Source of the DNA: Myroides sp. JBRI-B21084
GTDB lineage: Bacteria > Bacteroidota > Bacteroidia > Flavobacteriales > Flavobacteriaceae
Assembly (NCBI RefSeq): GCF_030545015.1
Contig: NZ_CP120653.1
Span: forward strand, 1,550,001-1,614,000
Direction: 5' to 3'
DNA length: 64,000 nt
The position numbers and the translations under genes were made by a program. Below the pieces are notes generated by a model. It made no database searches. It was not told the DNA's origin and was given only the letters and a program-made list of their open reading frames with translations. Positions 15,021 through 48,410 of this stretch are shown piece after piece. The stretch's first letter is position 1, and each line of letters starts with the position of its first letter.

Positions 15021-16253
15021 ATGAAAACCTTATTTTATAATATAAAAGAGCTTTTTCAAGTTCGCGAAAACAACAATGCAATATTGATAGGAAGTGAAAT
15101 GAAAGAACTTCCTTCAATTAAAAATGCCTTTTTGCTTATTGAAAATGATACCATTATAGCTTATGGATCAATGGAAAATGCACCGACTGATTTTGACCAG
15201 TCTGTTGATGTATCGGGTAAAATGATAATGCCAAGTTATATTGATAGTCATACGCATATTGTTTACGCTGGAAACCGTGAACAAGAATTTGTTGATCGTA
15301 TAAACGGTTTAAGTTACGATGAAATTTACCAACGTGGCGGTGGTATTTTAAATTCGGTTGAAAAATTACGCAACGCTTCCGAAGAGGAGTTGTATAATAA
15401 TGCTGCCCAGCGTTTAGAAGAATTGATTGCTTTAGGAACAGGCGTTATAGAAATAAAATCGGGTTATGGTTTAAGTTTAAAAGCCGAATTAAAAATGTTA
15501 CGCGTAATTAAAAAATTACAAGAAAATTATCCCGTAAAGATAAAATCTACATTTTTGGGTGCGCATGCTATTCCACCTGAATTTAAAGGGAATCAGTCAG
15601 GTTTTGTTGAAGCCATTTGTAATGAAATGATTCCTGAAATAGCAAAGTCAGGTTTAGCAGATTATGTTGATGCCTTTTTAGAAACGGGCTATTTTACAGT
15701 AGATGAAACTCGAAAAATTGTACAAACTGCTACAAAATATGGTTTAAAATCAAAAATACACGTAAATCAATTTACTGCAATCAATGGTATTGAAATGTGT
15801 GTAGAAGAAAACGTACTTTCGGTAGATCATTTAGAAATTGTAACCGATGAAGATATTAAAGCATTGCAAAAAGGAAACACCATTCCTGTTGCATTACCAA
15901 CTTGTTCTTATTTTATTTCGATTCCTTATACACCTGCACGAAAAATTTTAGAGGCGAATTTACCATTAGTAATCGCATCAGACTATAATCCGGGTACCAC
16001 ACCAAGTGGTAATATGAATTTTGTAGTAGCAACAGCATGTATAAAAATGAAAATGACCCCCGAAGAAGCTTTTAATGCCGCAACGCTTAACGCTGCTTAC
16101 GCTTTAGAGGTAGATAAAGATTATGGAAGCATTACAGTTGGTAAAAAAGCATCGTTTTTTATAACAAATTCTATACATTCCATTTATGCAATACCTTATA
16201 ATTTTGGTAGTAATTTAATTGAATCGGTATATTTAAACGGTAAAAAGCAATAA
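15021..16253 (+). CDS. hutI: imidazolonepropionase
   Basis: A 410-residue amidohydrolase of normal HutI length. Metal-binding DSHTH gives H77 and H79; further family marks are HIVYAGNREQEFVDRI, EIKSGYGL, the GAHAIP and HVNQF histidines, VDHLE, and the catalytic Asp in ASDYNPGT. HutI hydrolyses 4-imidazolone-5-propionate to N-formimidoyl-L-glutamate, the third step of histidine degradation. hutG follows 213 bases later and would take the product; hutH and hutU are not in the window. Confidence 0.95.
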   Translation: MKTLFYNIKELFQVRENNNAILIGSEMKELPSIKNAFLLIENDTIIAYGSMENAPTDFDQSVDVSGKMIMPSYIDSHTHIVYAGNREQEFVDRINGLSYDEIYQRGGGILNSVEKLRNASEEELYNNAAQRLEELIALGTGVIEIKSGYGLSLKAELKMLRVIKKLQENYPVKIKSTFLGAHAIPPEFKGNQSGFVEAICNEMIPEIAKSGLADYVDAFLETGYFTVDETRKIVQTATKYGLKSKIHVNQFTAINGIEMCVEENVLSVDHLEIVTDEDIKALQKGNTIPVALPTCSYFISIPYTPARKILEANLPLVIASDYNPGTTPSGNMNFVVATACIKMKMTPEEAFNAATLNAAYALEVDKDYGSITVGKKASFFITNSIHSIYAIPYNFGSNLIESVYLNGKKQ

Positions 16254-16350
16254 ATAAACACACCGCACAATTACTTGCACGGTGTGAAAAAAAATAGTTA
16301 TGAAAAAGATTTTATAAATCGAAAACTAACTTATCGATATATATTTACCT
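16251..16350 (-). ncRNA. possible small RNA, weak member of the CATAA family
   Basis: Minus-strand unit in the 213-base hutI-hutG gap. A TAAATTTG box at 16355-16362 is followed by about 100 bases. It carries the CATAA pentamer (plus-strand TTATG 16298-16302), then a T-rich stretch, then a hairpin CACACCG/CGGTGTG (16259-16286) and a broken T tract (16251-16258). There is no -33 TTG and the terminator is weak, so support is lower than for the two units at 44.4 and 46.3 kb. An alternative is an unrelated promoter plus the hutI 3' hairpin. Confidence 0.35.
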
Positions 16351-16354
16351 AATA

Positions 16355-16362
16355 CAAATTTA
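16355..16362 (-). promoter_or_regulatory. promoter box of possible small RNA
   Basis: Minus-strand TAAATTTG inside the hutI-hutG gap, pointing toward the hutI 3' end, where there is no gene on that strand. Confidence 0.4.
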
Positions 16363-16466
16363 GTAATAAATACTTAAATTTTAATAAGATATCGTATGTT
16401 AAATTTTAAATTTATATAAATAATACTTATAGTTACTTATTTTACTAAGATTTTAGAAAACAAAAA

Positions 16467-17507
16467 ATGGAAAATTTTGAATACTTTAACATAACAACTT
16501 TAAACGAACATTTGGTTTTAAGAAAAGGTGAAACCAAATTTGGCGAAAAAATTGATTTTCCGAATGATAAAAACACTCAATTAGTTGATTTTCTTAACAA
16601 TACAAATGCAAAATTTATAGTATATGGTATTAAAGAATTTGCAGGAATAAAAGCAAATTTTGGCAGAATAGGCACTAAACATGCTTGGGATGTATTTTTA
16701 CCTGTTTTTTTAAATATACAACATAATAAGTTTTTAAAAGGTCAAAATATTGCAGTATTAGGTTGTTTAGATTTTGAAGTATATGCTACTGAAATTGAAC
16801 AATTAAACCCTACAGAACCTAAACAATTAAATCGTTTACATGAAATTGTAAATGAAATTGATAAAGAGGTAACATATATAAATCAATTAATACATCGTTC
16901 AGGTAAAAAAGCTATTGTAATTGGTGGTGGTCACAACAATGCGTATGGCAACATTAAAGGTTTGGCTTTGGCTAATGGTAACGCAGTTAATGTAATAAAT
17001 TTTGATGCCCATACCGATTTTAGAGCATTAGAAGGTAGACATAGCGGAAATGGTTTTTCGTATGCATTTCACGAAGGTTTTTTAAATGCCTATTGTGCTT
17101 TTGGTGTACACGAAAACTATCTAAATAAATACATGTTACAGCAATTTAAAGAACACAGCGAACGCCTAAAAATGGTTACTTTTGAAGATTTAAAAGTACG
17201 TTTTGAAAAAGATTTTATAACGAGTTTAAATACCATACATCGTACTTTAAAATCAATACCTTATGGAATTGAAATTGATGTAGATGCAATTGAAAATGTT
17301 GCAAGTAGTGCTATGTCGCCATGTGGATTTTCAGTTTCAGAAGCGCGACAATTTGTAAATCAAACCGCTGCAAGTGTAAATGCAGCTTATATGCATTTGT
17401 GCGAAGGATCGCCAAGTTTAAGTAACACTTCAGAAAATATGTTAGGCAAATTACTTACCTATTTAACAACCGATTTTATTAAAGCGCAATTAATTGAAAG
17501 TAAATAA
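16467..17507 (+). CDS. hutG: formimidoylglutamase (arginase/agmatinase family)
   Basis: A 346-residue ureohydrolase. The dimanganese ligands sit in GGGHNN, NFDAHTDF (around residues 178-186) and EIDVDAI, the three family metal motifs, all intact. Together with the hutI neighbour this points to formimidoylglutamase, which hydrolyses N-formimidoyl-L-glutamate to glutamate and formamide, rather than arginase or agmatinase. No promoter box was found directly upstream, so hutI readthrough is possible. Its stop abuts the ATG of the next gene, so translation of the two may be coupled. Confidence 0.85.
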   Translation: MENFEYFNITTLNEHLVLRKGETKFGEKIDFPNDKNTQLVDFLNNTNAKFIVYGIKEFAGIKANFGRIGTKHAWDVFLPVFLNIQHNKFLKGQNIAVLGCLDFEVYATEIEQLNPTEPKQLNRLHEIVNEIDKEVTYINQLIHRSGKKAIVIGGGHNNAYGNIKGLALANGNAVNVINFDAHTDFRALEGRHSGNGFSYAFHEGFLNAYCAFGVHENYLNKYMLQQFKEHSERLKMVTFEDLKVRFEKDFITSLNTIHRTLKSIPYGIEIDVDAIENVASSAMSPCGFSVSEARQFVNQTAASVNAAYMHLCEGSPSLSNTSENMLGKLLTYLTTDFIKAQLIESK

Positions 17508-20173: not shown

Positions 20174-21238
20174 TTACTTTTTTACAAACTTTATAGTTTT
20201 TACGTGTTGATTAAAACTTAATTTTAAAAAATAAACTCCATTTGAAAAATTAGAAACATTTATTTTAGGTTGAGTAGCATCTTTTAAAATTATTTTTCCT
20301 GTACAATCGTATATAACAAAATTACAATTGTTTAAACCGTTTGTTTCTATATTAATAAAATCAGAAGTACATGTAGGATAAACTGCTACTTTATCTAAAG
20401 TTTCAATATTTGTATCTAAATTTTTCCATTTATTTTCGGCCGCAGGTCCATTCCAAATACTTGTTGCTAAATATGGGTTATCAATAAATGGATTTCTGTT
20501 ACCTTGTGCGGCAAAAATGGTTTCGTTTCTATTTATTTCGTGAGCAGAAACAGGATCTTCTGCATTCCATTGTAAAAAAATATTTGGCATATCTCCATTA
20601 GTAGAAAACGATGTGGAACCGTGTCCTACATTTATTGGTTGGCATCGGTTACCGTAGCGCACATACATATACATAATCATACGTGCAATATCTCCTTTCC
20701 ATTGATCGCCAGGATAAAAATAATCCGTTCCATTTTGTTGTATCACTCTTGAATATGAAATGTAAAAAGTTGGATTTGCAATAAATTTAAAATTACTTCT
20801 TAAGTTATTACGATCATAATCAGCCGCTCGTAAATGGTGAGCATCAGAACCTGGACCTTCAAATTCTAAATTGGGAGTACCTTTTGATCTAGGATAAACA
20901 TGCTCACGAACCCATTTGTTTTCACAGTTTGATGTATGGCAGCTTGCATTTTTATCTCGTGATAAATCATTATTTTTATTTAAATCGGTGTCGTTCCAAC
21001 CATAAATCAACAAAACTTTTTGATTATTATTTGGATCTATATCAGCATCTTTTAAAACATTCCAAACATCTGGGGTGTAAATTAATTCATAATTATGCGT
21101 ATTTGTTATTAAAGTTGCAAGTTCATTTTTTAAAGCATCGCCTTTTAAATTCAAATTTATAGTTTGATAATAAGCAGGAATTTGTGCGTTTATACTGCTA
21201 AAAACTATAAAAAAAAGAATGTAATATATTGATTTCAT
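20174..21238 (-). CDS. secreted endonuclease I with type IX secretion sorting domain
   Basis: 354 residues. Signal peptide 1-18 (SSINAQ). An endonuclease I / EndA-like nuclease domain spans about 55-265: the WVREHVYPRSKG block has catalytic H113, and SDAHHLRAADYDRNNLRSN gives H134/H135 and N/R metal ligands. The last about 75 residues form a T9SS type A sorting domain (VAVYPTC..., SNGVYFLKL, C-terminal KFVKK), with TC where YPNP would normally give NP, and extra cysteines. This predicts an extracellular or surface nuclease used for DNA degradation and nutrient gain. Confidence 0.9.
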   Translation of the reverse strand: MKSIYYILFFIVFSSINAQIPAYYQTINLNLKGDALKNELATLITNTHNYELIYTPDVWNVLKDADIDPNNNQKVLLIYGWNDTDLNKNNDLSRDKNASCHTSNCENKWVREHVYPRSKGTPNLEFEGPGSDAHHLRAADYDRNNLRSNFKFIANPTFYISYSRVIQQNGTDYFYPGDQWKGDIARMIMYMYVRYGNRCQPINVGHGSTSFSTNGDMPNIFLQWNAEDPVSAHEINRNETIFAAQGNRNPFIDNPYLATSIWNGPAAENKWKNLDTNIETLDKVAVYPTCTSDFINIETNGLNNCNFVIYDCTGKIILKDATQPKINVSNFSNGVYFLKLSFNQHVKTIKFVKK

Positions 21239-43657: not shown

Positions 43658-44335
43658 ATGCAATTAAACGATTTATATAAAAATACTGACTATTTATCCT
43701 ATTTAAGCGGCTTTATTACTCAGAACAGAATGTTGGGGTTTGAAAAAGTTTTAGAAAACCGTACCAATCATTTTTGTGTAGCTGTTGAAGATGTTTATCA
43801 ATTGCACAATACTAGTGCTGTGATGCGTAGTTGCGAAGTTTTTGGAGTTCAAAATTTACATGTTATTGAGCAAAAATTTAGTAAAACTATTGATAAACAA
43901 ATTGCTATGGGAGCCGAAAAATGGGTGGATATACAAATGCATAAATCTACACAAACGTGTATTAGCGAAATAAAAAGTAAAGGTTACCAAATTGTTGCTA
44001 CTACACCGCATAAAGATGCCTTTTTATTAGACGATTTTGACATCACCAAACCTTCGGCATTATTTTTTGGGACCGAAAAAATGGGACTTTCTTCAGAAAT
44101 TATGGATCAAGCAGATACTTATATTAAAATTCCGATGTATGGTTTTACCGAAAGTTTAAATATTTCAGTTTCGGCTGCCATTATTTTAAATAACATTACA
44201 ACGCGTTTAAGAAAATCTTCAATAGACTGGCAATTATCAGAAGAAGAATTGTTAACAAAAAAAATAGACTGGGCTAGAAAATCGATAAAAGATATTGATT
44301 TTATTACAGAGCGTTTTTTACAAAATCAGTTTTAA
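43658..44335 (+). CDS. SpoU/TrmH family RNA 2'-O-methyltransferase
   Basis: 225 residues. SPOUT-fold motifs in order: RTNHFCVAVEDVYQLHNTSAVMRSCE (motif 1, with the catalytic Arg/Asn region), ALFFGTEKMGLS (motif 2) and IPMYGFTESLNISVSAAIIL (motif 3), which together form the SAM knot. A short C-terminal extension follows. The size and N-terminus favour TrmH (Gm18 in tRNA) over rRNA enzymes, but this is not certain. Confidence 0.85.
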   Translation: MQLNDLYKNTDYLSYLSGFITQNRMLGFEKVLENRTNHFCVAVEDVYQLHNTSAVMRSCEVFGVQNLHVIEQKFSKTIDKQIAMGAEKWVDIQMHKSTQTCISEIKSKGYQIVATTPHKDAFLLDDFDITKPSALFFGTEKMGLSSEIMDQADTYIKIPMYGFTESLNISVSAAIILNNITTRLRKSSIDWQLSEEELLTKKIDWARKSIKDIDFITERFLQNQF

Positions 44336-44336
44336 C

Positions 44337-44371
44337 AAAAAAAAAAAGTGGGTTTACCAAGGTAAACCCAC
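44337..44371 (-). terminator. terminator of putative small RNA
   Basis: 11-bp perfect stem (44348-44358 / 44361-44371) and eleven T on the minus strand, the strongest terminator in the window. Confidence 0.85.
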
Positions 44372-44446
44372 TTTAATAACCAAAAAAAACACTTATGAAA
44401 AACTCAAAAATTCTAAAACATTCACTTGTCCTGTTGTAGATGAGTT
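44337..44446 (-). ncRNA. putative small RNA (CATAA family), strong member
   Basis: A minus-strand transcription unit with no reading frame. Its promoter is TTG-N21-TATATTTG (44482 to 44451), and the predicted start, four bases after the box, is an A at 44446. It ends in an 11-bp perfect hairpin GTGGGTTTACC/GGTAAACCCAC (44348-44371) followed by eleven T (44337-44347). It carries CATAA (plus-strand TTATG 44393-44397) and GTTATTAAAG (44371-44380) just before the stem. Total about 110 nt. The block is shared with the unit at 46.3 kb. No gene follows on this strand except trmH antisense. Confidence 0.62.
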
Positions 44447-44450
44447 GGTA

Positions 44451-44482
44451 CAAATATACGAACATTTATTTTAATCATGCAA
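44451..44482 (-). promoter_or_regulatory. promoter of putative small RNA
   Basis: Minus-strand TTG (44480-44482), 21-base spacer, TATATTTG (44451-44458): full Flavobacterium consensus. It drives the 110-nt unit and no protein gene. Confidence 0.7.
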
Positions 44483-44502
44483 ATGTTTTTTTAATTTTTT
44501 TA

Positions 44503-45453
44503 TTATTTTTTTATCAATCCTAATTCAATTAATCTTTCAGTTAAAAATTCGCCAGCTGTAATATCGTCAAATTGCTTTGGATTATCAGAATTGATACAAT
44601 TTTCTAAGCAGTTTAAAGGCATTTCGCTTATAGGGTGCATAAAAAATGGTATTGAAAAACGAGAGGTTCCCCATAATTCTCTAGGAGGATTTACAACTTG
44701 ATGAATGGTAGATTTTAATTTATTGTTTGTATGGCGCGATAACATATCGCCAACATTAATAACTAATTCATCGTTAGCTGCAATGGCATCTATCCATTCG
44801 CCATTATGGTTTTGCACTTGTAAACCTTTTCCTTGTGCCCCCATTAACAAGGTAATTAAATTTATATCACCATGTGCAGCTGCACGAACGGCATCTTTAG
44901 GTTCATTTAAAATAGGAGGGTAGTGAATGGGTCTTAAAATAGAATTTCCGTTTTTAATAAAATTGTCAAAGTAAAATTCATCTAAATTTAAATATAAAGC
45001 CAATGCTCTTAATACATAAACCCCAGTTTTTTCAAGCATTTTATAGGCTTCTTTACCTGTTGAATTAAATTCAGGTAGTTCTTCAACAACTACATTTTTA
45101 GGATATTCAGCATCTAATTTAGGATTGTTTTCAACATATTGCCCAAAATGCCAAAACTCTTTTAAGTCGCCTGTTGTGCGTCCTTTTGCAGATTCTTTTC
45201 CAAAGGAAACGTAACCACGTTGGCCACCAATTCCTTCAATTTCATACTTCTTTTTTACCTCTAAAGATAAATTAAAAAAAGAGCGTACTTGTTCATATAG
45301 TTTTTCAACTAATTGGTCATTTAAAAAATGGCCTTTTAATGCAACGAAGCCAATTTCTTCGTATGCTTTTCCGATTTCATTTACAAATTTTTGCTTGCGT
45401 ACCGGATCATCCGATAGGAAATCACGCAAATTTACACTAGGTATATTTTGCAT
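44503..45453 (-). CDS. isopenicillin N synthase-like 2OG-Fe(II) oxygenase
   Basis: Start at ATG 45453 (316 residues); the in-frame TTG at 45474 is part of the TATATTTG promoter box. N-terminal DIOX_N-like region (about 3-110), then the jelly-roll core. The iron triad is H194/D196 (AAHGDINLITLL) and H251 (STIHQVVNP), with the 2-oxoglutarate-binding RFS (R265, S267). It is related to IPNS/ACC-oxidase/hyoscyamine-type dioxygenases. Substrate unknown. It follows tetR in the same direction but has its own promoter. Confidence 0.86.
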   Translation of the reverse strand: MQNIPSVNLRDFLSDDPVRKQKFVNEIGKAYEEIGFVALKGHFLNDQLVEKLYEQVRSFFNLSLEVKKKYEIEGIGGQRGYVSFGKESAKGRTTGDLKEFWHFGQYVENNPKLDAEYPKNVVVEELPEFNSTGKEAYKMLEKTGVYVLRALALYLNLDEFYFDNFIKNGNSILRPIHYPPILNEPKDAVRAAAHGDINLITLLMGAQGKGLQVQNHNGEWIDAIAANDELVINVGDMLSRHTNNKLKSTIHQVVNPPRELWGTSRFSIPFFMHPISEMPLNCLENCINSDNPKQFDDITAGEFLTERLIELGLIKK

Positions 45454-45471
45454 ATTTAATTCTTTGAATTT

Positions 45472-45479
45472 CAAATATA
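45472..45479 (-). promoter_or_regulatory. promoter box of 2OG-Fe oxygenase gene
   Basis: Minus-strand TATATTTG, 18 bases before ATG 45453. The TTG of this box is in phase with the gene but is not a start codon. Confidence 0.55.
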
Positions 45480-45519
45480 AAAATACCTTTTTAAATAAAA
45501 AATAAGTACTTGAAAATTC

Positions 45520-46185
45520 TTAGGATGCGGTTGTTTTTTCGTGAGCCATAAGTATTATTGAAGTAATTGCGTCTTTAATACGTTGTTCACCTTCTGGTGT
45601 GTTAAGATCAATTCCACAAAATAAACTTCCATTTGTTTTTGCATGTAAAACCAAGTAATAAACGCCCGAAATTAATACAGCTAAAATACCTCTTAAATCT
45701 ATATTTGCTTTATCGTAAGTAGGTTCGGCAACTTTAAAAAAAGCTTCACCTAATTCTTCCCGTTTATCAGCAATATTTCGTAAATATGTTTTATTTTCGC
45801 CTAATTCCCAATGTATAATTTTTTGTAAAACCTTATCTTTCAACAAAGTATCTAATTGGTTGTGTAACAAACCGTAAATAGCTTCTTTAGGAACAGCTGT
45901 TGTGTTTTCTAACATAACAACTAAATCATCTTTTGCTACTGCATTTAAAAAATCGCGCTGTAAAATGTAGGTTTCTACTAAATTATCTAAACTACCAAAA
46001 TAACTGTAAACCAAACTTTTATCAACACCTGCTTCTTTTGATACAGCAGTAGCATTTAAACCTGTATACCCTTTTTTTAATAAAATTTTCCCTACAGATT
46101 GAATCATTTTTTGTTTAGTACGTTCTTTATCACGTAATAAGCCCGAAGTTCGTTTGCGTTTTTTTGGCTCATTTTCCATATCCAT
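45520..46185 (-). CDS. TetR/AcrR family transcriptional regulator
   Basis: 221 residues. The N-terminal helix-turn-helix is typical: IQSVGKILLKKGYTGLNATAVSKEAGVDKSLVYSYFGSLDNLV (about residues 30-72), preceded by a basic tail (KKRKRTSGLLRDKERTKQ). The ligand domain is unassigned. TetR proteins commonly regulate adjacent divergent genes; here the fused ketoacid dehydrogenase E1 diverges and a 2OG oxygenase follows downstream. Its own promoter box is TAAATTTG at 46200-46207, directly after the small-RNA terminator. Confidence 0.87.
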   Translation of the reverse strand: MDMENEPKKRKRTSGLLRDKERTKQKMIQSVGKILLKKGYTGLNATAVSKEAGVDKSLVYSYFGSLDNLVETYILQRDFLNAVAKDDLVVMLENTTAVPKEAIYGLLHNQLDTLLKDKVLQKIIHWELGENKTYLRNIADKREELGEAFFKVAEPTYDKANIDLRGILAVLISGVYYLVLHAKTNGSLFCGIDLNTPEGEQRIKDAITSIILMAHEKTTAS

Positions 46186-46199
46186 GACAATTTTAATTG

Positions 46200-46207
46200 C
46201 AAATTTA
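46200..46207 (-). promoter_or_regulatory. tetR promoter box
   Basis: Minus-strand TAAATTTG, 14 bases before the ATG at 46185; its first base abuts the T run of the small-RNA terminator. Confidence 0.5.
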
Positions 46208-46246
46208 AAAAAAAAGAACTGATTTATACCTCATACAAATCAGTTC
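46207..46246 (-). terminator. terminator of second putative small RNA
   Basis: 10-bp perfect stem 46216-46225 / 46237-46246, 11-base loop, nine T on the minus strand. Confidence 0.82.
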
Positions 46247-46311
46247 CTTAAATAACAAACACCATTATTATGGTAAATTAAAATATCAAAATGTGTTTTG
46301 GTTTTTTGATT
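46207..46311 (-). ncRNA. putative small RNA (CATAA family), second strong member
   Basis: Minus-strand unit in the tetR/E1 divergent gap. The promoter is TTG-N20-TAAATTTG (46346 to 46316); the predicted start, four bases on, is an A at 46311. It ends in a 10-bp perfect stem GAACTGATTT/AAATCAGTTC (46216-46246) with nine T (46207-46215). CATAA (plus-strand TTATG 46268-46272) and GTTATTTAAG (46247-46256) match the 44.4-kb unit in order, and the distance from CATAA to the stem is 21 bases in both. It lies upstream of tetR, so a tetR leader with attenuation is a second possibility. Confidence 0.6.
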
Positions 46312-46315
46312 GAAA

Positions 46316-46346
46316 CAAATTTAGAACTATTTTTTCTAATGTGCAA
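46316..46346 (-). promoter_or_regulatory. promoter of second putative small RNA
   Basis: Minus-strand TTG (46344-46346), 20-base spacer, TAAATTTG (46316-46323). Confidence 0.68.
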
Positions 46347-46409
46347 AAAAAAATCACGGTATAGTGAAAAAAAATATAAATATTTCAATTAATAATTTTA
46401 TTACATTTA

Positions 46410-48410
46410 ATGTCGCGAAATTTAAATATAAATATGGAAGATAATTCAGTTATTTTGGCTCCAGAACTTTTATTAGATCTTTATAAAAAATTGCTAAAAC
46501 CTAGATTAATAGAAGAAAAAATGTTAGTACTTATCAGACAAGGTAAAGTCACTAAATGGTTTTCAGGTATTGGGCAAGAAGCTATTGCTGTTGGTGTTAC
46601 AGCAATTTTAGAACCCACAGAATATATTTTACCCATGCACCGAAATTTAGGTGTTTTTACAAGTAGAGAAATTCCATTAAACAGACTTTTTTCTCAATGG
46701 CAAGGTAAAAAAAATGGTTTTACTAAAGGGCGTGATCGATCGTTTCATTTTGGTACACAAGAGTTTAAAATTATTGGAATGATTTCGCATCTTGGGCCAC
46801 AATTAGGAGTAGCTAACGGAATTGCTTTAGCGCATAAATTGCGTAACGAAAACAAAATTACTGCTGTTTTTACTGGTGAAGGAGCTACTTCGGAAGGAGA
46901 TTTTCACGAAGCGTTAAACGTTGCTGCTGTATGGAATTTACCCGTAATGTTTATTATAGAAAACAATGGCTACGGACTTTCAACTCCAACAAATGAACAA
47001 TATAAGTGTAACAATTTAGCCGATAAAGGCATAGGTTATGGCATGAAAAGTTATATTGTTGATGGGAACAATATTGTTGAAGTTTATACTAAATTAAATG
47101 CTATAGCCAAAGAAATGCGTTTAAATCCACATCCGGTTTTAATTGAAATGAAAACTTTTAGAATGCGTGGACATGAAGAAGCTAGTGGAACTAAATATGT
47201 ACCAGACGTGTTATTTGAAGAATGGAAAATTAAAGATCCTATTCATAGATTTAAAACATACTTGTTAGAAATGGGGTATTTAACCTATGAACTAGACAAT
47301 ACAATTAAAGCTGAAATTAAAGAAGAAATTGATTATAATTGGAAAGTAACACAAGAAGAACCTGAAATTGTAGTTGATTTAAGTATTGAATTAAATGATG
47401 TATACAAACCTTTTGATTATAAACATATTGAACAAATAAAAGAAAATAGAAAAATACGTTTTATTGATGCTATTTCAGAAAGTTTAAAACAATCACTTGA
47501 ACGCCACGATAATTTAGTAATTATGGGGCAGGATATTGCAGAATATGGTGGAGCTTTTAAAGTTACTGAAGGATTTGTAGATGTTTTTGGCAAAGAACGA
47601 ATCAGAAATACACCTATTTGTGAAAGCATTATAGTTTCTACAGCAGCTGGTTTATCAATTAACAAGTACAAGGCAATAGTTGAAATGCAATTTGCCGATT
47701 TTGTTTCAACAGGTTTTAATCCAATAGTAAATTTACTTGCAAAACAACACTATCGTTGGAATCAAGAAGCTGATGTTGTGGTACGTATGCCTTGTGGCGC
47801 GGGTTCAGGAGCAGGACCTTTTCACTCGCAAACTAACGAAGCTTGGTTTACTAAAACACCTGGTTTAAAAGTGGTTTATCCTGCTTTTCCTATTGATGCT
47901 AAAGGCTTGCTTAATACTGCAATTAACGATCCAAACCCAGTATTATTTTTTGAACATAAAAATTTATATCGTAGCAAATCGCAAGAAGTTCCAACAAACT
48001 ATTACACCATACCATTTGGCAAAGCTGCTTTAATTAAAGAAGGCAACAATGTAACTGTAATTTCGTATGGTTTTGGAGTTCATTGGGCGCTTGAAACTTT
48101 AGAAAATCATCCTGATATTTCGGCCGATTTAATAGATTTACGCACCCTACAACCTTTAGATTACGATGCAATTAAAAAATCGGTACAAAAAACAAATAGA
48201 GTTATAATTTTACAAGAAGATTCTATGTTTGGGGGTATTGCTAGTGACTTGTCGGCATGGATTATGGAAAACTGTTTTGAATTTTTAGACGCTCCTGTTA
48301 AACGAGTTGCAAGTATCGAAACTCCAATTCCATTTTTAGATAGTTTAGAGGCGCAATATTTACCTAAAGCACGTTTTGAACAAGAATTATTAGTACTTTT
48401 GCAATATTAA
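46410..48410 (+). CDS. branched-chain 2-oxoacid dehydrogenase E1, fused alpha and beta subunits
   Basis: 666 residues; ATG 46434 is an alternative start. The N-half (about 10-320) is the alpha subunit with the ThDP loop GEGATSEGDFHEALN...ENNGYG (about 155-186). The C-half (about 345-666) is the beta subunit (IMGQDIAEYGGAFKVTEGF, EMQFADFVSTGFNP, VRMPCGAGSGAGPFHSQ, HKNLYR). It decarboxylates branched-chain 2-oxoacids and passes acyl groups to E2; the E2 at 18.8-20.1 kb is a plausible partner. The fused form is usual in Bacteroidota. No clear promoter box; tetR diverges upstream. Confidence 0.9.
   Translation: MSRNLNINMEDNSVILAPELLLDLYKKLLKPRLIEEKMLVLIRQGKVTKWFSGIGQEAIAVGVTAILEPTEYILPMHRNLGVFTSREIPLNRLFSQWQGKKNGFTKGRDRSFHFGTQEFKIIGMISHLGPQLGVANGIALAHKLRNENKITAVFTGEGATSEGDFHEALNVAAVWNLPVMFIIENNGYGLSTPTNEQYKCNNLADKGIGYGMKSYIVDGNNIVEVYTKLNAIAKEMRLNPHPVLIEMKTFRMRGHEEASGTKYVPDVLFEEWKIKDPIHRFKTYLLEMGYLTYELDNTIKAEIKEEIDYNWKVTQEEPEIVVDLSIELNDVYKPFDYKHIEQIKENRKIRFIDAISESLKQSLERHDNLVIMGQDIAEYGGAFKVTEGFVDVFGKERIRNTPICESIIVSTAAGLSINKYKAIVEMQFADFVSTGFNPIVNLLAKQHYRWNQEADVVVRMPCGAGSGAGPFHSQTNEAWFTKTPGLKVVYPAFPIDAKGLLNTAINDPNPVLFFEHKNLYRSKSQEVPTNYYTIPFGKAALIKEGNNVTVISYGFGVHWALETLENHPDISADLIDLRTLQPLDYDAIKKSVQKTNRVIILQEDSMFGGIASDLSAWIMENCFEFLDAPVKRVASIETPIPFLDSLEAQYLPKARFEQELLVLLQY

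Follow-up and report, generated by a model that had tools for sequence, protein, structure and literature searches.

Two short minus-strand units, each running from a promoter to a terminator, lie between genes in a 64,000-base stretch of the genome of Myroides sp. JBRI-B21084. They raise the question whether they are genes for small RNAs (sRNAs) and whether, as a first-pass annotation had proposed from the letters alone, they are two members of one family. The genome is a single contig of 2,509,405 bases; the stretch, hereafter the window, covers its bases 1,550,001-1,614,000, and positions below are window positions unless a contig is named. Judged by its sequence and its conservation, the first of the two, unit 1, is very probably a gene from a family of short non-coding RNAs that occurs in Paenimyroides and its near relatives, recognizable by a 22-nucleotide (nt) core in front of an intrinsic terminator. 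Unit 2 calls for a different answer, which is given after the family has been described.

Unit 1 and its surroundings

The elements of unit 1 are as follows:

44451..44482, minus strand: predicted promoter of the Bacteroidota type, TTG-N21-TATATTTG (TTG at 44482-44480, box at 44458-44451); the box is TATATTTG or TACATTTG in nine aligned loci of the trmH class described below
44337..44446, minus strand: predicted sRNA of about 110 nt starting at the A at 44446, of the trmH-convergent long-leader class (sequence, fold and conservation in nine loci)
44377..44398, minus strand: family core TCATAAGTGTTTTTTTTGGTTA, predicted unpaired, identical in all three copies of this genome
44337..44374, minus strand: intrinsic terminator with a 13-bp stem, a 4-nt loop and 11 T's, belonging to the covarying stem described below

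The hairpin (44374-44345) is perfect, its 13 bp including the A/T ends, and the T-run ends at 44337. Folding of the RNA gave a z-score of -2.0, with 9 of 200 shuffles equally good. A scripted scan required such a promoter, then a perfect stem with a loop of 3-8 and six T's, and unit 1 was its sole match; unit 2 was missed because its stem lay outside the scan settings. Unit 1 converges with a trmH-like gene (43658-44335, plus strand), which encodes a SpoU methylase (PF00588) scoring under NCBI's TrmH cut-off, and is transcribed behind a 2OG-Fe(II) oxygenase gene (44503-45474, minus strand). The anatomy that the first-pass annotation had described was borne out for both units, with TTG, spacers of N21 and N20, boxes, an A at 44446 and at 46311 and a hairpin with a T-run, and so were the gene contexts, unit 1 lying on the convergent side between the trmH-like and oxygenase genes and unit 2 in the divergent gap between tetR and the E1 gene.

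The core recurs within and beyond the genome

The core, TCATAAGTG-T8-GGTTA, is present in three identical copies in the 2.51 Mb genome. When the genome was scanned for the 22-mer allowing up to three mismatches, the same three sites were found, all of them exact, and the reversed pattern gave none:

C1:1594377-1594398, minus strand: exact core of unit 1
C1:467259-467280, minus strand: exact core
C1:520340-520361, minus strand: exact core

A nucleotide search of 61 genomes of the genus as defined by GTDB recovered the trmH-side element in G022 (91%) and G027 (86%), together with additional places in G000, G022 and G027 where the core stands with a terminator. Altogether 11 of the 61 genomes match unit 1, eight of them weakly over 24-58 bases, and five of these eight matches lie at apparent gene starts. 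The exact 22-mer was found at 30 loci in 10 genomes of an 84,980-species collection, including five named Paenimyroides species. By genome the loci number 8 in P. ummariense, 5 each in P. baculatum and an uncultured Myroides metagenome-assembled genome (MAG), 3 in P. viscosum, 2 each in P. aquimaris, Flavobacterium sp. xlx-214 and the MAG Lapin bin33, and 1 each in bin50, P. tangerinum and Myroides MB2.029, a tally that follows the record titles and assumes that the genomes labelled Flavobacterium or Myroides are related to Paenimyroides.

A covariance model was built on 15 members, unit 1 not among them, and unit 1 scores 58.7 bits against it (E 1.3e-9). It also has the arrangement that we use to recognize the family, namely TCATAAGTG-T(7-8)-GGTTA with a stem and a T-run no more than a few bases behind it. 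Among 121 genomes of the genus, 53 were matched by the model at E<=0.05, and five of these have a recognizable core, with clear copies in G000 (3), G022 (6), G027 (3), G107 (12) and G084 (1). No core was found in 25 of the other 48 matched genomes, where the one match inspected in each (L129-L153) is a terminator; in the remaining 23 all matches are below 34 bits, and the core inspection covered only the former 25. In 299 sampled genomes of the bacterial family the model matched seven at E<=0.001, and the six besides G000 are terminators without the core. We could not find a description of the family in Rfam, nor in the open-access literature as judged by titles and the opening of abstracts; it looks like a new family of a known kind, seemingly undescribed.

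Two side observations belong here. One locus in G107 (L156, UCAUAAGUAUUUUUGGUUA) may be a decayed copy. Eleven Flavobacterium genomes (L134-L137, L140, L142, L146, L150-L153) have a terminator preceded by a well-kept sequence, GAATTTAGATTTATGTTTTTGGT; its match to the model is weak, and the core is absent.

A covarying terminator behind a constant core

A stem of 9-16 bp with a T-rich tail stands behind the core in all 33 complete distinct exact copies, and in 30 of the 33 it is free of mismatches. The stem sequences vary widely from copy to copy while the core is constant. In a model-fitted alignment of 42 matches (37 distinct), which leans towards its own structure, 96.5% of the cells are paired and 12 of 13 base pairs have changed on both sides; none of 500 shuffles reached any of the five measures used, and sliding the alignment by one column lowered the pairing to 45-60%. 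Further copies and covariation in related genomes, which had been named as a test of the family, are thus present for unit 1 (12/13 pairs covarying).

Several promoters and several kinds of locus

The distinct loci, 42 in number, differ in what precedes the core. In 24 of them, the short class, a box of the form TAnnTTTG stands 12-14 bases before the core, so the RNA would start with the core or slightly ahead of it; L073 and L081, both among the 24, carry a box at -44/-45 as well and may belong to the long class. A palindrome of one of four kinds starts 33-50 bases before the core in 18 of the 24 (e.g. L021, L017, L054 and L060), being TTAATCTAnATTAA-like in seven, TTATATGCnTGCATATAA-like in six, TTTGTTnTAACAAA in three and TTTTGAACTTCAAAA in two, where orthologues are counted separately and the independent cases are therefore fewer. 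By their sequence the four look like operators of different regulators. A box with one change is found near the core in 12 more loci, and carries little weight because in 8 of the 12, all of the trmH class, it derives from the leader; 6 of the 42 loci have neither type of box.

In the trmH class, which includes unit 1, the promoter box lies 54-68 bases before the core. The RNA converges with trmH in all eight loci that show trmH, the distance from the aligned trmH end to the core being 65-80 bases. Across nine loci strong conservation spans the whole RNA as far as the terminator, apart from an insertion or deletion of 5-7 bases in the leader, and the DNA upstream of the promoter diverges. The oxygenase gene is an inconstant neighbour, as it was not found in the examined stretches of L065, L077 and L078.

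A third class lies in the 3' untranslated region (3'UTR) of glmS (identified by TIGR01135 above its cut-off), about 85 bases after the stop codon and in the same direction, with copies in G000 (at 467k), G022 and P. aquimaris; no TAnnTTTG box was found near the core of these three copies. Finally, two viral contigs from IMG/VR carry a copy on the plus strand (L210 from 1074, L211 from 7814). Both converge with an N-acetylmuramidase endolysin gene (PF11860; PHROG endolysin) beside a holin gene, and the two endolysins are 80% identical; an endolysin of this type was not found at any other locus then examined.

Unit 2 stands apart from the family

Unit 2 lies between tetR (45520-46185, minus strand) and an E1 dehydrogenase gene (46410-48410, plus strand):

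46316..46346, minus strand: predicted promoter TTG-N20-TAAATTTG (TTG at 46346-46344, box at 46323-46316); a TAnnTTTG box stands at the matching place in three other species
46207..46311, minus strand: single-copy RNA unit or terminated tetR leader, starting at the A at 46311 and ending at 46207 with a hairpin and 9 T's (own-genome search, orthologous gaps, family model)

Its RNA folds with a z-score of -3.1, and 1 of 200 shuffles was equally good. The two units have the same form, GTTATT stands before the stem and CATAA is present in both, which is why the first-pass annotation had linked them by a shared motif. That link did not survive: the pattern CATAA-N9..14-GTTATTNAAG occurs at three sites in the genome (unit 1, unit 2 and 21088-21114 of the window) against two for the reversed pattern, and at this chance level the sequence link is therefore not evidence in itself. 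In the tetR-E1 gaps of G022, G027 and P. baculatum (L061) the TAnnTTTG box is kept and a terminator stem follows about 75-90 bases on; CATAA is replaced in all three, while a GTTGTTAT-like sequence persists before the stem. Against the family model unit 2 scores 17.7 bits (E 0.2), fifth of 42 matches in the window after unit 1 and three terminator-like places, and a search of its own genome (E<=0.001; 13 of 75 candidates scored) found no match besides itself. It is thus highly unlikely that the two units are members of one sRNA family. The proposal of an sRNA family with a conserved segment and variable terminators, as made for the pair, stands for unit 1, with its many copies and covarying hairpins, and is not supported for unit 2 as a member.

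By the tests made, unit 2 is a separate conserved unit, presumably either a single-copy sRNA or a leader of tetR. An attenuator, in which unit 2 would be a 5' leader of tetR carrying its own terminator and not a free sRNA, is possible though doubtful. In four species about 20-40 nt separate the end of the terminator from the tetR start, and short ATG frames (3 to 12 codons) reach or enter the stem in all four when judged by eye; short T-rich frames of such a kind are however expected by chance, and a TAnnTTTG box right after the terminator in three of the four species could serve tetR itself.

Also in the divergent gap between tetR and E1 is a palindrome, TCACGGTATAGTGA (46354-46367), in which TCAC-n6-GTGA is kept in four species, and which from its sequence and place is a probable TetR operator. 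Elsewhere in the window a third promoter-to-terminator unit was seen on the minus strand (16254-16370), with TAAATTTG ... UUUUUCAUAACUAU8 and a hairpin, scoring only 13.8 bits with the family model. It lies antisense between hutI (15021-16253, TIGR01224 over its cut-off) and a hutG-like gene (16467-17507, below its cut-off).

What the core may do

The sole constant part of these RNAs is an unpaired segment beside a bare terminator, reached from several promoters, and this is the build of seed-pairing sRNAs. As a whole, we regard it as fairly probable that this is a family of short RNAs in which the core acts as a trans-pairing seed that blocks ribosome entry. Each RNA would end in an unpaired UCAUAAGUG-U(7-8)-GGUUA and then an intrinsic terminator whose stem drifts freely. 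As a seed, the core would pair in trans with A-rich regions around the start codons of mRNAs, with a complement of the form UAACC-A8-CACUU-AUG-A, and the pairing would block the entry of the ribosome in the way of the FopS sRNAs in Bacteroides. Separate promoters would let several signals feed the one seed.

The complement resembles a flavobacterial start region. Scored as a start, it is level with the best 15.5% of 265 real starts (each taken as the first ATG of an open frame of 120 codons or more in selected sequence pieces) and above all of 175 background ATGs. The predicted pairing of the core with the 265 start regions has a mean of -9.49 against -8.9 (sd 0.3) for shuffled cores, with 2 of 40 shuffles as strong, while 11 of 40 shuffles were as strong in upstream DNA and 5 of 40 in coding DNA.

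Other results weigh against this reading. In 45% of trials with a reshuffled upstream part the score as a start was equally good, so A-richness accounts for the resemblance of the complement to a start. Strong pairings are not in excess, as 25 starts fall below -12 kcal/mol against 25.1 for shuffles, and the 93 below -10 (75.2 for shuffles) were equalled by 7 of 40 shuffles. An mRNA complementary to the core was not found. The 18-nt complement with up to three mismatches has, the three sRNA loci apart, 24 sites in the own genome where the control has 30, and the 15-nt complement with up to two mismatches shows no clear excess over the control in four genomes (55 vs 45, 49 vs 58, 55 vs 52 and 65 vs 55, sRNA loci included); among the matches listed, the exact 15-mers in G000 (3), G022 (6) and G107 (11) are all at family loci. 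No outstanding pairing with the core was seen at the starts of glmS, trmH, tetR, endolysin, holin or SusC, the predicted energy for the one SusC gene above the cut-off being -9.9 kcal/mol, close to that of the average start region; the windows for the oxygenase and E1 starts were misplaced (at TTG or off the ATG) and are uninformative. Hfq (PF17209, E<=0.1) was found in none of four genomes, the control search responding in 5 of 14, and an RRM_1 protein was not found in the own genome, with the control responding in Bacteroides ihuae. Moreover, the scan of 84,980 species demanded an exact match and therefore selected exact cores, and the core is exact in 37 of the 42 distinct loci and varies in five.

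Because the pairing tests are weak or negative and neither Hfq nor RRM_1 turned up, the strength of the parts differs. The family is very likely real, pairing of the core in the manner of FopS has by our analysis slightly less than an even chance, and it is rather unlikely that the core of a real family is instead a protein-binding site, the RNAs being decoys or carriers for a protein other than Hfq or RRM_1 and the U-tract between two fixed blocks its landing site. Such a site would suit a stretch of 22 nt that is near-invariant while no complementary partner is seen in the genome. It would also suit the five variants (U7 in three, U8AA in one, U5 with G to A in one), which alter almost only the U-tract and keep UCAUAAGU and GGUUA, two blocks that the search pattern itself demanded. 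However, no candidate protein was seen, Hfq was not found in the four genomes nor RRM_1 in the own genome, and the similarly built FopS RNAs are described as acting by pairing, though RbpB binds FopS too (PMC11697453).

Two further explanations would dispense with a regulatory RNA altogether. It is highly improbable that the repeats have no regulatory function and are mere terminators or a palindromic extragenic repeat: the core does stay beside a terminator in all classes, and the glmS copies can double as the glmS terminator, but in the short class a promoter box 12-14 bases before the core leaves a transcript that is therefore little more than core and terminator, the stem sequences drift where the core does not, and the 25 weak matches inspected in other genomes of the genus are terminators that lack it. 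The conserved element could also mark where translation of a tiny opposite-strand gene begins (TAACCAAAAAAAACACTT-ATG-A), since the complement resembles a flavobacterial start and similar sequence stands at apparent gene starts in other Flavobacterium (L012-L014). We give this next to no credence and reject an opposite-strand peptide, as the reading frames that follow the ATG are short and not alike among copies or among orthologues, and promoters and terminators face the other way.

The seed reading can be carried further, to one anti-start-codon seed serving as a clade-wide network of host and phage, with many promoters, at least four operators, the glmS 3'UTR and phage lysis regions, and working without Hfq or an RRM protein. 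In this wide form it is unlikely; if it were true, stress, amino-sugar supply and phage lysis would all feed one post-transcriptional switch.

To our knowledge few regulatory RNAs have been described in Flavobacteriaceae. The family offers a ready set of probes: the core is fixed, genomes carry 3 to 12 copies, some of the species are named, and the starts and ends of the RNAs are predicted. Given the copies on viral contigs and in the 3'UTR of glmS, the role of the shared seed becomes directly testable in a species that has only three copies.

Comparison with known RNA systems

6S-Flavo and Flavo-1 are flavobacterial RNA families in Rfam, and a comparison with them had been suggested for the two units; neither reaches its gathering score in the window, where no Rfam family does. 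Matches to L20_leader on unit 1, L005, L006 and L015 (20.9-29.4 bits, gathering score 58.7) are all below threshold and were taken for A/T-rich chance. Within the same bacterial family, the Rfp sRNAs of Flavobacterium psychrophilum (such as Rfp18) are independent sRNAs and, in the account of PMC9723704, are treated as single sRNAs, unlike our multicopy family; we set them apart by that description only.

The closest parallel in build is FopS (RF04319) of Bacteroides thetaiotaomicron, a set of paralogous sRNAs that, as PMC11697453 describes, block translation by pairing around start codons and have an R1 seed in common with GibS of the same species. As in the core family, the account gives many paralogues per genome with an unpaired segment near the 5' end and then an intrinsic terminator; in the core family four genomes have 3, 6, 3 and 12 copies, which share a single seed near the 5' end. 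The core family has copies in a 3'UTR and on viral contigs, and for FopS one 3'UTR-derived member and sequence in a Caudovirales phage are reported (PMC11697453).

The differences lie in the sequence and in the partner. Unit 1 aligns over the whole FopS model (UUUUUCAU...GGUUA.UAAA) at 27.8 bits, below the gathering score of 56, and the core sequence of the Paenimyroides family is a different one. At E<=10 the model matched none of 10 other family loci and none of 10 control loci. A FopS search of the own genome gave nothing above cut-off and 15 matches below it, up to 22.7 bits; this search, which at E<=10 also responds in 8 of 14 control genomes, did not pick up even unit 1, so little can be read into its negative outcome. 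FopS had been tried as the family name, being the best sRNA match on unit 1, and was rejected with 0 of 10 other loci matching. FopS is bound and counteracted by RbpB, an RRM-1 protein, and no RRM_1 domain was found in the own genome, to which that search applied. The seed of FopS pairs with the start region of susC mRNAs, whereas the own genome has one SusC gene above the cut-off, whose start pairs with the core about as well as the average start, and complementary sites are not in excess. In build the core family resembles FopS, but neither the model score nor the search for an RbpB-type partner places it in that family.

If the parallel with FopS is true, Bacteroidota would repeatedly have used paralogous RNAs for regulation in which a seed directly precedes a bare terminator, here in genomes with no Hfq found, and a clade-wide network, if real, would be either distantly akin to the FopS circuit of Bacteroides or a second, independent invention of it.

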